The notes under the pieces: generated by a model
The model's database searches: none
What the model was told of the DNA's origin: nothing
What the model saw: only the letters and a program-made list of their open reading frames with translations
Program-made: the position numbers and the translations under genes
Shown: positions 1 to 14,613 of the stretch, piece after piece
Layout: the number at the start of each line of letters is the position of its first letter
Numbering within the stretch: position 1 is the first letter of the stretch
NCBI GenBank assembly: GCA_014381415.1
Contig: JACNLQ010000054.1
Coordinates: forward strand, 1-34,831
Direction: 5' to 3'
DNA: 34,831 nt
DNA from: Fidelibacterota bacterium
Lineage (GTDB): Bacteria > Fidelibacterota > Marinisomatia > SCGC-AAA003-L08 > D37C17

Positions 1-650
1 GTACCAAAATCCAAATAGAGTGGTGTATGTTGTAAATTAAAATGCATGCTTTGGGTGGAGTCTGCAAAAAATACGGCAGAGTTGCGATGATATTCGAATG
101 GTACAACTTCCGGTGAACCACCAAACCACTCAATCATACTATTATTGCCATCCATTTCATAATAGCGCTTTTCACAATCCAATATACCTGAAGCAGATGC
201 GGTGGCTGCCACCATTGGCTGGGCAGGGTCTAGATGATTATTAGCAAATATGGCTCCAGCGGCACCCCCCATGGAACCACCAACCATATAAATCCGGTTG
301 GAATCAATATTGTATTGTTCAGACAGCCAGATTATTTCCTGCATTACAAAATATTGAGCATCCTGGTGATTATAATTATTGGCTGACCCTCCAAAAGGCG
401 AAAGGTAGAGCCAGCTGCGGGTATTGGCTTCTTCATCGAATTGAGTATAATAGGGACTGTTTTCATCTCCACCCCATTGGTGAAAAACTACAAGTAGTGA
501 ATGAGAGTTTGAGTCATTATAATTCTCTGGCACCTGATAAGAAAATACATCAAGAGTATCGCCACCAACCACTAAATACTCAGTAATTATATCCTGACTC
601 CATCCAAAGGATGCTGAAAAAACAAGTGCATATTTGATAAATCTATTCAT
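1..650 (-). CDS. Secreted alpha/beta hydrolase (esterase/depolymerase-like), C-terminus cut by window edge
   Basis: The reading frame opens at an ATG (648-650) and runs off the left edge, giving about 216 residues. Residues 1-18 look like a signal peptide (MNRFIKYALVFSASFGWS, cleavage before QD). The first strands lead to LLVVFHQWGGDE, a likely oxyanion-hole region, and GGSMGG near residue 125 is a nucleophile elbow (GxSxG) of the alpha/beta-hydrolase fold. Layout and motif fit the LpqC / PHB-depolymerase-like esterases, which cleave ester bonds of polymers or small esters outside the cytoplasm. The Asp and His of the triad would lie beyond the window. No Shine-Dalgarno sequence is visible before the ATG. 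Fold confidence is good; the substrate is unknown. Confidence 0.75.
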   Translation of the reverse strand, partial: MNRFIKYALVFSASFGWSQDIITEYLVVGGDTLDVFSYQVPENYNDSNSHSLLVVFHQWGGDENSPYYTQFDEEANTRSWLYLSPFGGSANNYNHQDAQYFVMQEIIWLSEQYNIDSNRIYMVGGSMGGAAGAIFANNHLDPAQPMVAATASASGILDCEKRYYEMDGNNSMIEWFGGSPEVVPFEYHRNSAVFFADSTQSMHFNLQHTPLYLDFG

Positions 651-692: not shown

Positions 693-812
693 AAAAAAGA
701 AAGGGCTTCATTTCCGAAGCCCTTAATTAGAGGAGGAGGTTGAATCTTTTGAGTTTGTTGTAAGGAGGAGTTAACTAAGAAGAAGTTCAACCACCGAATA
801 AATTTACGCTGA
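693..812 (-). ncRNA. Candidate small RNA with anti-Shine-Dalgarno loop, copy 1
   Basis: On the minus strand a TACTTT -10-like box (824-819) would give a start near 812. The predicted RNA of about 120 nt has a stem GGUUGAA / UUCAACC enclosing a loop with CUCCUCCUU, which contains the CCUCCUU core found at 16S rRNA 3' ends. A second CCUCCUCC follows. It ends in a strong intrinsic terminator (724-691): a 9-bp AAGGGCUUC / GAAGCCCUU stem with a GAAA tetraloop closed by G-U, then UCUUUUUU. No ORF fits inside. It is a direct repeat of copy 2 at an offset of exactly 345 bp. Start and expression are inference. Confidence 0.5.
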
Positions 813-859
813 ATTCCAAAAGTAAGTTTCCAAATTTAATGTAAAATTTTGTAACAAAA
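694..859. repeat. Direct repeat, copy 1 (166 bp)
   Basis: This block aligns without gaps to 1039-1204, about 87% identical by hand count. Identity is highest in the terminator half (701-790) and lowest in the promoter-side half. The 13-bp palindrome TTTTGTTACAAAA (847-859) closes the block. Its centre lies 41 nt before the predicted start of the minus-strand RNA, a position where an activator could sit. Confidence 0.85.
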
Positions 860-1037
860 GTAACTCGTCTGCAAAACCGATTTCAGTTAATTTTGTATGA
901 AAATTTCTTTGGCGTAAATCACATCTTTTAAAAATATATTCATGTACTTATGAAATACTTGGGTTGGTACATTTATCTCAGTTCATAAACCTTTGGAGAA
1001 AAATATGATTCAATAATGATTATTGTAAAATGGTCAT

Positions 1038-1157
1038 TAAAAAGAAAGGGCTTCGTTTCCGAAGCCCTTAATTAGAGGAGGAGGTTGAATCTGTTGAGTT
1101 TACTTTAAGGAGGAGTTAACTAAGAAGAAGTCCAACCACCTATAAAATTTACGCGGG
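1038..1157 (-). ncRNA. Candidate small RNA with anti-Shine-Dalgarno loop, copy 2
   Basis: This is the second copy of the element at 693-812. TACTTT at 1169-1164 is the -10-like box. The long stem reads GGUUGGA / UUCAACC, so the A-U pair of copy 1 becomes G-U and pairing survives only on the minus strand. The terminator (1069-1038) keeps the same 9-bp stem with a GAAA loop now closed by G-C. CUCCUCCUU is again in the loop. The element lies directly behind the MATE gene stop (1205), so it could be a 3'-UTR RNA of that operon rather than an independent gene. Confidence 0.5.
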
Positions 1158-1204
1158 TCTCCAAAAGTAAGTTTCCTTTTATTATGTAAAAAATTGTAAC
1201 AAAA
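1039..1204. repeat. Direct repeat, copy 2 (166 bp)
   Basis: This is the gapless partner of 694-859. It abuts the stop codon of the MATE gene. The terminal palindrome is slightly degenerate here (TTTTGTTACAATT on the minus strand). Between the copies (860-1038) I see only AT-rich sequence without an ORF. Confidence 0.85.
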
Positions 1205-2566
1205 TCAGCCTGCTTCCAATGCCGGTTTCATTGAACGATTGAGAATAATTCTAAGCCAGGTTAAGCTGACAGCAGCAGTTATAATACAGGATATTAAGGT
1301 ACCAACCCAAGCATAATGGACGGGTTTATCTAATATCATAACAAAGTACCAGGCTAAAGAGGCAGAAATAATGACTACCCTAAACAAAGTGAGTATAAAC
1401 ATGGGGTAGGCAACTCCCAACCCCTGCATTATTCTGGTACTGGTCATGCCAATAGTTATAAATGGATAAGCAAAGGCCATGATTTTAAAATATAAAACAG
1501 ACAGTCTAATTATTTCTGGAGAATCAGTAAATACCGGAAGAATACTATCACTAAAGAATAAGAATAATACACTAAAACTAAGGGATATGCCTACGGCACG
1601 TGTTAACCCATATTTTATCATTGTACGAATTAAATCAAATCGTTTTGCGCCATAAAACATTCCCACTAAAGTAACTAGAGATGTGGCTACAGAAATAATT
1701 GGAAGAAAAAATAAATGCTCAATTCTCCCTGCGGTTTGATAGGCGGCAACGGCATCTGAAGAGCCTAATATCCAGTTGAATAGTAATATTCCCATGGACA
1801 TAATGATCATGCTGAGAGAGGCAGGAACTCCCATGCGAAATATATCTTTAATAATTTTCATATTGAAGGAAAAATCTTTGAGATTAAAGGTTATGTAACT
1901 GTGCTCTTTAAATAACAAAGCATAAATAAAAACCAAAGTGACCAAGGCTTGGCTGATAACCGTAGCAATGGCAGCACCAGCAATTTGGTAATAGTGAATA
2001 AAAATGGGGTCGAGGATTATATTTAACACGGTTCCAGCCCCCAATACTTTCATAGGGAACATCATTTCTCCCTCACCAGATAAAATGGATCTAAAGAAAA
2101 CGGAGAGTATCATGAAAATAGAACCTCCAATCATGATATAAAAATATTCGAGAGCAACCTCTACCGTTTCTACATCTGCACCCTGAACGCCAATGAATTT
2201 GTGACCATATAAAATCCCGAATCCAACAATTATAGCCCCAATTATGAGTCCCAATAAAATGGTATGTTCTGCTGCATTATCTGCATTCTTTTTATCTTTT
2301 GCACCGATAAATTGGGCAATTACGGTAGTAGCACCCGACCCAAGCCCGAAAGTAATTCCCATAAGAATAAATAAAAACGGAAAGACATATCCCAATGCGG
2401 CAAGGGCAGTACCTCCAACCCATTTGCCAATGAAGGCAGTATCAACCAGCATATATATCGCCTGTACTGCCATGCCAAACATCATGGGAAGAGATAACTT
2501 CCATAATGCTTTAATGGGGTTTTCTATAAACTCTTCTAATCGACTTTCTTTCGGCTGTGTTTCCAT
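1205..2566 (-). CDS. MATE family multidrug/Na+ antiporter
   Basis: This 453-residue inner-membrane protein has about 12 hydrophobic segments, the usual MATE size. The N-terminal half shows the family pattern PMMFGMAVQAIYMLVDTAFIG followed by LAALGYVFPF. The second half repeats the arrangement (GVPASLSMIIMSMGILLFNWILG). MATE proteins export cationic drugs or metabolites in exchange for Na+ or H+; the substrate cannot be read here. The ATG (2564-2566) overlaps the stop of the upstream gene by one base (TAATG), so translation is probably coupled. The gene ends directly at the copy-2 RNA element, whose terminator would also end this transcript. Confidence 0.9.
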   Translation of the reverse strand: METQPKESRLEEFIENPIKALWKLSLPMMFGMAVQAIYMLVDTAFIGKWVGGTALAALGYVFPFLFILMGITFGLGSGATTVIAQFIGAKDKKNADNAAEHTILLGLIIGAIIVGFGILYGHKFIGVQGADVETVEVALEYFYIMIGGSIFMILSVFFRSILSGEGEMMFPMKVLGAGTVLNIILDPIFIHYYQIAGAAIATVISQALVTLVFIYALLFKEHSYITFNLKDFSFNMKIIKDIFRMGVPASLSMIIMSMGILLFNWILGSSDAVAAYQTAGRIEHLFFLPIISVATSLVTLVGMFYGAKRFDLIRTMIKYGLTRAVGISLSFSVLFLFFSDSILPVFTDSPEIIRLSVLYFKIMAFAYPFITIGMTSTRIMQGLGVAYPMFILTLFRVVIISASLAWYFVMILDKPVHYAWVGTLISCIITAAVSLTWLRIILNRSMKPALEAG

Positions 2567-14114: not shown

Positions 14115-14534
14115 CTACATTTTTGGATTAAATATTCCACTTAGTTTCCAGCCTAGATAGCCCATAGGAATATAGGCAAATCCTAAATCCAATATATTAA
14201 ACCATAATGGTGAGGGCAACATCATAACCATGGTAATTCCACCCATTAAATAAAAACAGCCAATAGATAATGCAAATTTGAATTGATGACTTGAAGCGGT
14301 TAGAGAGGCAATTAATGCACCAACAAATGTGCCTAAAGCATGAGCTAAAAAGGGAACCAAAAAATGAATTATCCCATAGAGATGAATATTTTCCCTTATA
14401 CTTTCAAAATTATTTGGATCTACACCTTCAGGGGGAGGTATTAAAATTCCACCATAATTAATTAGGGACATATTAACGAACCCACCTATAATTATTCCAA
14501 GTATTACGGCTGAAATATTTCTAACTATTTTCAT
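14115..14534 (-). CDS. Small four-TM membrane protein, unknown
   Basis: This 139-residue protein has four predicted helices: ISAVILGIIIGGFVNMSLI, then after an IPPPEGVDPNNFESIRENI periplasmic loop, HFLVPFLAHALGTFVGALIA, FALSIGCFYLMGGITMVMML and LDLGFAYIPMGYLGWKL. The proline-rich loop with PPEGVDPNN recurs in small inner-membrane proteins of marine Bacteroidota-like genomes that have no assigned function (from memory). It ends five bases from a bidirectional terminator and is probably a single-gene unit. Confidence 0.65.
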   Translation of the reverse strand: MKIVRNISAVILGIIIGGFVNMSLINYGGILIPPPEGVDPNNFESIRENIHLYGIIHFLVPFLAHALGTFVGALIASLTASSHQFKFALSIGCFYLMGGITMVMMLPSPLWFNILDLGFAYIPMGYLGWKLSGIFNPKM

Positions 14535-14613
14535 ATTACTTTACTCCTCCCTAAACTATTTAACCATTTGACCGCTTGGTACGGTCTGACGGATAAGAAC
14601 AGTATAGCAGATA

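Follow-up and report, generated by a model that had tools for sequence, protein, structure and literature searches.

Small RNAs (sRNAs) with C-rich unpaired seeds that target Shine-Dalgarno (SD) regions include AbcR1/2, RsaE/RoxS, the C-rich RNAs of Staphylococcus and other sRNAs with C-rich loops. RNAs that mimic the anti-SD (aSD) sequence are already described in alphaproteobacteria. They include the ar14 family and the cuckoo RNAs. In ar14 RNAs, CCUCCUCCC is carried by each of three hairpins; NfeR1 of Sinorhizobium meliloti, a member of this family, pairs at the start of ntrB and thereby silences ntrBC (PMC10746234; PMC3927594). The Bacteroidia rarely use the SD; their aSD is masked by bS21, bS18 and bS6, and their strong-SD genes include rpsU (PMC8710568).

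The locus described here is a tandem repeat from a Fidelibacterota bacterium (Marinisomatia; SCGC-AAA003-L08; D37C17). The window, the whole stretch of DNA that was analysed, spans 34,831 nt (contig JACNLQ010000054.1 of assembly GCA_014381415.1, positions 1 to 34,831 of the forward strand). Judged from their sequence, copies 1 and 2 of the repeat are very probably real sRNA genes. Like the ar14/cuckoo RNAs, the predicted products carry CUCCUCC-type aSD motifs in loops, stems that vary between members and a terminator, and a trans-acting role is proposed for them. The CUCCUCC of the inner loop is predicted to be unpaired and the stems covary, as in ar14, whereas the three CCUCCUCCC hairpins give way to one aSD hairpin and one partly linear CCUCCUCCU before the terminator. 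As regards silencing at a start region, the sequence shows a 16-nt complementarity over a GGAGGAG-AUG start. The host, by contrast, belongs to another phylum and rarely uses the SD, and the upstream box is different. No match to the RNA is found in Rfam at the curated gathering thresholds; once the thresholds are relaxed, ar14 (RF02344) comes out best (22.8 bits versus a gathering threshold of 58.8, E 0.04) and also appears at 17.1 bits. This match reflects a likeness of motif and layout and does not make the RNA a member of the family. The cuckoo analogy drawn in the initial annotation holds for the proposed way of working, with ar14 as the best sub-threshold match. AbcR1/2, RsaE/RoxS and the Staphylococcus C-rich RNAs differ in seeds, structures and phyla, and none of them is matched by the RNA in Rfam at the thresholds used. 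The likeness to the bS21/SD circuit of Bacteroidia lies in an SD-poor lineage with few strong-SD genes as a special class (PMC8710568); there the aSD is masked by proteins, whereas here a copy of the aSD would be carried by a separate RNA, and most of the strong-SD genes that were found encode secreted proteins.

Repeat unit and predicted transcripts

The 166-bp repeat occupies positions 694-859 (copy 1) and 1039-1204 (copy 2). Alignment bears out the earlier description of two gapless copies 345 bp apart (start to start), at 88% identity. On the minus strand, where all features given below for the two copies lie, copy 2 reads from 1204 to 1039 and copy 1 from 859 to 694. The pair is placed between the end of a MATE-family transporter gene (1205-2566, minus strand; Pfam MatE E 3e-55), which is the conserved upstream neighbour, and the start of a gene for a secreted esterase-like protein (1-650, minus strand; read from sequence), which begins near 650 downstream of copy 1 and runs past the window edge. 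The block had been reported to lack an ORF; indeed, none of at least 80 aa overlaps it, and its homologues differ by indels of 1-4 nt. A small peptide encoded by the repeat was considered and rejected, as no frame is conserved and G002 carries a 4-nt deletion. A phage or mobile origin was also rejected, with no convincing phage match and no match to viral contigs.

The block recurs as first delimited, but a promoter-like box further upstream (854-840 and 1199-1185) marks the beginning of the conserved unit. The shared layout comprises (i) a TTACA-N5-TTACA box, (ii) a 45-nt gap, (iii) a start G with TANNTT near -10, (iv) a hairpin or short single strand with CUCCUCC, and (v) a terminator. In copy 2, the box TTACAATTTTTTACA (1185-1199), a 10-bp direct repeat found by pattern match at about -60 to -46, comes right after the MATE stop codon and is followed at fixed spacing by a putative -10 hexamer TAAATT (1146-1151). 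The predicted sRNA of about 101 nt (1039-1139) runs from the start G, set from the fixed geometry, to the end of the T-run, set from the terminator. In copy 1, the box TTACAAAATTTTACA (840-854; pattern match and aligned rows) precedes the putative hexamer TAAATT (801-806; fixed spacing) and a predicted sRNA of about 102 nt (693-794; geometry and terminator). Both products are shorter than the roughly 120 nt given in the initial annotation.

The box-to-G spacing is 45 nt in 14 aligned rows, with G at the predicted start in 13 of the 14 and A in the remaining row. These rows also have a TANNTT-type hexamer around -12 to -7, offset in a few of them by roughly one base, and none departs from T at -63 or G at -61, two positions that the search pattern leaves free. 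The pattern of box and hexamer without the aSD motif has 39 matches in the family compared to 3 in the reversed control (family figure summed from a table). Promoter and transcript ends are predicted from sequence features (box, spacing and terminator), which together give each copy its own putative promoter and intrinsic terminator, as expected of an sRNA gene. Sites of OmpR/PhoB-family regulators are short direct repeats one helical turn apart. By analogy, we infer that the box resembles the sites of these response regulators in spacing and half-site.

Among the 39 matches, an ATG lies at or beside the predicted start of TTACA-N5-TTACA-N33-TANNNT promoters at seven loci (L110, L111, L112, L114, L123, L124 and L128), which suggests leaderless mRNAs at these sites and supports the start-site prediction. 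The promoter-like pattern also occurs just upstream of the MATE gene in G003 and G005 (L104, L105).

Each copy is predicted to fold on the minus strand into an outer stem, GGUGGUUGRA/UUCAACCUCC with one U-U mismatch, around an inner hairpin in which CUCCUCCUU is unpaired, followed by CCUCCUCCU and the terminator. The loop display of an aSD sequence noted earlier is present in both copies; the motifs number two per copy, however, not one. In copy 2, the arms of the outer stem are GGUGGUUGGA (1131-1140) and UUCAACCUCC (1080-1089), assigned from fold and covariation, the extreme 5' bases being paired only when transcription begins no further downstream than 1140. The first motif, CUCCUCCUU (1107-1115), sits in the inner loop with a mean unpaired probability of 0.76, and the second, CCUCCUCCU (1076-1084; from sequence and fold), is partly within the outer stem. 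The corresponding parts of copy 1 are the arms GGUGGUUGAA (786-795) and UUCAACCUCC (735-744), the inner-loop motif CUCCUCCUU (762-770; mean unpaired probability 1.0) and the second motif CCUCCUCCU (731-739), on the same kinds of evidence. Across the computed folds, the mean unpaired probability of the first motif ranges from about 0.6 to 1.0. The GAAA-tetraloop terminator reported on this strand is found in both copies, as a 10-bp stem, a GAAA loop and a T-run, at 1039-1069 in copy 2 (stem 1069-1046) and at 694-724 in copy 1 (terminator scan); these two terminator-like sites compare to 0.4 in shuffles. Two pairing-preserving differences between the copies are likewise real: A-U to G-U in the outer stem and G-U to G-C beside the tetraloop. 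The fold is more stable than that of shuffled sequences, with z = -4.3 on the minus strand versus about -3.3 on the plus strand. CTCCTCC occurs nine times in the window compared to 2.05 expected, a count that none of 100 shuffles reaches, and four of the nine are loops of the two copies.

Homologues and covariation

The repeat is not private to this genome, and sequence searches place versions of it in several related genera. Among 150 relatives, a DNA search finds the block in four of five same-genus genomes (two copies in G001, one each in G002, G003 and G005) and, as a weak match, in another genus (G006). Named records with the exact core belong to Candidatus Marinimicrobia/Neomarinimicrobiota. 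A covariance model built from six copies adds G009, G007 and a second locus in the genome of the window. A combined pattern (TTACA-N5-TTACA, 42-72 nt, CTCCTCC), run on 171 genomes of the class, matches 12 of 23 genomes of the family versus 2 of 148 others, with one match in the 171 genomes for the reversed control; G007 is the thirteenth family genome, by covariance model, while the members from G010 and G022 come from the pattern search. The two matches outside the family (G079, G085) fall in a stretch that reads as coding sequence (PriA-like by reading). Other covariance-model matches within the family (G021, G013, G017, G014, G004, G010:C1, G012 and G022:C4) are terminators or coding sequence only and are not counted. 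The initial annotation had named a lack of homologues with conserved loop and stem as the result that would count against it; instead, loop, stems, terminator and promoter-like box all recur in several genera of the family.

The unit varies in its details. Genus g7 has a reduced RNA that consists of GAGUUUAUUUAACUCCUCCUUAAAA, or a sequence near it, plus the terminator; in copy b of G001, the second motif is degraded to CCUCCUCUU. A conserved UUAA precedes CUCCUCCUUA in g1 and in most of g7.

Covariation beyond shuffles is absent from a six-sequence alignment of the same genus, where the pairs hardly vary, and the signal appears only once other genera are added. In an alignment of eleven sequences (ten distinct), which takes in G006, G007, G009 and the second locus of the genome itself, 91% of cells pair, 18 of 26 pairs have changed on both sides and none of 500 shuffles reaches these values; the figures lean toward the structure because the alignment was fitted to the model structure, and the shuffles preserve columns, not relatedness. 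Slid structures score far lower than the predicted one in this alignment.

Further RNA-like loci with comparable loops are seen in the searched genomes. One with an aSD loop is found twice within the same genus, at L061:1269-1371 (G000:C2) and L063 (G001:C8:36098-36206, minus strand), where the sequence upstream is strongly conserved, the terminator shows compensatory changes and the loop in G001 is CUCUUCC; no TTACA repeat is seen upstream of this locus. Also among the 39 matches of box and hexamer, and so under a TTACA box, L126:1501-1730 in G007:C18 reads by eye as a long stem that encloses a hairpin with CUCCUCCUCC in its loop. Hairpins with CUCCUCC-like or CCUCC-like loops also occur at L069 (G011:C5:1581-1660, minus strand), L064 (G002:C74:22491-22559, minus strand), L070 (G009:C16:26922-26999) and L058 (G024:C39:43501-43583, minus strand), most with a terminator after the hairpin and one outside the family.

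Shine-Dalgarno use and candidate targets

Strong SDs are uncommon in this lineage, and most of its genes are without one: a 5-nt SD core precedes 23 of 231 starts in the sampled loci, a sample rather than the whole genome. The 16S 3' end was not found by pattern search. In the family, AGGAGGAG before ATG is enriched about twofold (266 versus 123 in the reversed control, summed from a table). From pattern matches, selected in part by hand, 28 strong-SD starts were kept as true-looking gene starts. A signal-peptide-like N-terminus follows 23 of these 28 GGAGGAG starts compared to 72 of 189 other starts, and the one-sided Fisher p of about 1e-5 is a guide only, because several of the 28 genes are orthologues of each other and thus non-independent, the signal-peptide call is a simple rule altered between rounds, and the background is lenient in allowing any of three start codons. 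Among the products of the strong-SD genes are a secreted family that is conserved (AVSALxVAQDAAG), proteins that start with ADVFMTELADPQN and large Cys-rich proteins, whose genes in g1 and g7 have the leader AACTCGAGGAGGAG. The same leader, common to these two genera, stands before the secreted proteins of L003, L262, L263, L301 and L311, several of them Cys-rich. Within the window, a 139-aa membrane protein (14115-14550, minus strand) with GGAGGAG about 10 nt before its ATG is a candidate target.

With self-matches set aside, the genome's best match to the RNA (E 0.04) is the start of a large secreted protein on G000:C62, the candidate-target leader of which is CUCGAGGAGGAGUUAACUAAUG; a further leader considered as a candidate target is AAGGAGGAGUAAUAAUG. 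The G000:C62 mRNA, AGGAGGAGUUAACUAA then UG, has 16 contiguous nt of perfect complementarity to UUAGUUAACUCCUCCU, covering the SD up to the AUG. The predicted loop duplex of -27.3 kcal/mol (mean -6.3, sd 3.75) is the strongest of 614 candidate starts, a set that includes loci fetched for their SD. Since any RNA with an aSD-like sequence is complementary to a strong SD, most of the predicted pairing is unspecific; pairing that extends past the SD is clear for one gene and less so for the CTCGAGGAGGAG group. A search of the sister genomes turned up no true orthologue of the best target.

A shared regulator box sought upstream of 23 strong-SD genes turned up at L003; in the same search, L252 has a weaker TTAC repeat far upstream and the match at L317 is its own SD. 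The repeat at L003 is reverse-oriented (mRNA strand GTAATTGACCGTAA) and lies upstream of the best candidate target, at a distance of about 34-47 nt from the start codon (1507, minus strand).

Alternative explanations

The surroundings of the element bear on two readings in which the repeat would belong to a neighbouring mRNA. In most genomes the element lies 3' of MATE; copy 2 starts at the MATE stop codon, and in several genomes the upstream box touches that codon. The MATE mRNA could then have its 3' end and its terminator in the element, perhaps with processing to a 3'-UTR-derived sRNA. Transcripts confined to the MATE mRNA are nevertheless rather unlikely, because copy 1 lies 345 bp further from MATE, the conserved box of copy 2 keeps a fixed distance from the predicted start, and in G007 the element stands before the esterase gene without MATE ahead of it. 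Read-through from MATE may be a second source of the RNA. Some genomes have a MATE match and lack the element; in the four of them that were read downstream of MATE (G013, G014, G017 and G018), another gene comes right after it. On its other side, copy 1 ends about 45 nt ahead of the esterase start, and an esterase gene is also downstream in G001, G006, G007 and G009 (full-length homologues adjoin the element in L094 and L095), as would suit attenuators or riboswitch-like leaders of that gene. Such a leader role is unlikely because the downstream gene varies: no co-oriented neighbour is conserved, and in G002, G010 and G016 it is a convergent SDR gene, which leaves nothing to lead into. Moreover, copy 2 has its own terminator and is then followed by a further complete unit with promoter box before the esterase gene is reached.

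The RNA might also mimic the 16S 3' tail and titrate an aSD-binding protein rather than pair with mRNA. This protein decoy would suit an SD-poor lineage, like the Bacteroidia, where bS21, bS18 and bS6 occlude the aSD (PMC8710568), but it is very unlikely, as a decoy would need neither the 16 nt complementary to a start region nor the UUAA conserved ahead of CUCCUCCUUA. While the support for a small-RNA reading comes from DNA, a repeat with no regulatory role, that is, a chance duplication of a terminator-rich intergenic stretch, is extremely improbable given the covariation, the spacing of the promoter box and the conservation across genera; the covariation, along with the pattern control, largely contradicts such a duplication.

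Proposed mechanism and significance

The probable, though far from certain, function of the repeat is to encode a trans-acting sRNA, controlled by an activator, that would keep ribosomes from binding to mRNAs with a strong GGAGGAG SD. Each copy would be a free-standing gene, in which a regulator would recognise the 10-bp-spaced direct repeat TNGTTACA-N5-TTACAT and drive transcription from the G 45 nt downstream of the box. The RNA, of about 100 nt, would form an outer stem around an inner hairpin displaying ACUCCUCCUUA, then the second CCUCCUCCU, then the terminator. The exposed aSD-like bases would pair with extended SD sequences (AAGGAGGAG) and keep ribosomes off the start sites. The aligned homologues show a conserved anatomy, and the proposed pairing with targets is supported by complementarity and target statistics, from which we infer silencing. 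Because most genes of the lineage lack a strong SD, the action would be selective and fall on a minority of mRNAs led by an SD, most of which encode secreted and surface proteins.

More broadly, and more tentatively, the tandem locus, the second locus of the same genome and the loci of sister genera could form a class of aSD-displaying sRNAs, several under the box of one regulator. In a lineage where translation otherwise mostly does without the SD, this class would perhaps act as a dedicated off-switch for the minority of strong-SD messages, most of which encode secreted or surface proteins.

In the literature searched, Marinimicrobia and small RNA appear together in passing mentions only. 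An apparently non-homologous family of aSD-mimicking RNAs in an uncultured, SD-sparse phylum suggests convergence with those of alphaproteobacteria. The few messages that carry the bait in such a host suggest that selectivity is possible, and the proposal yields a testable prediction on how large secreted proteins may be controlled in these ocean bacteria.
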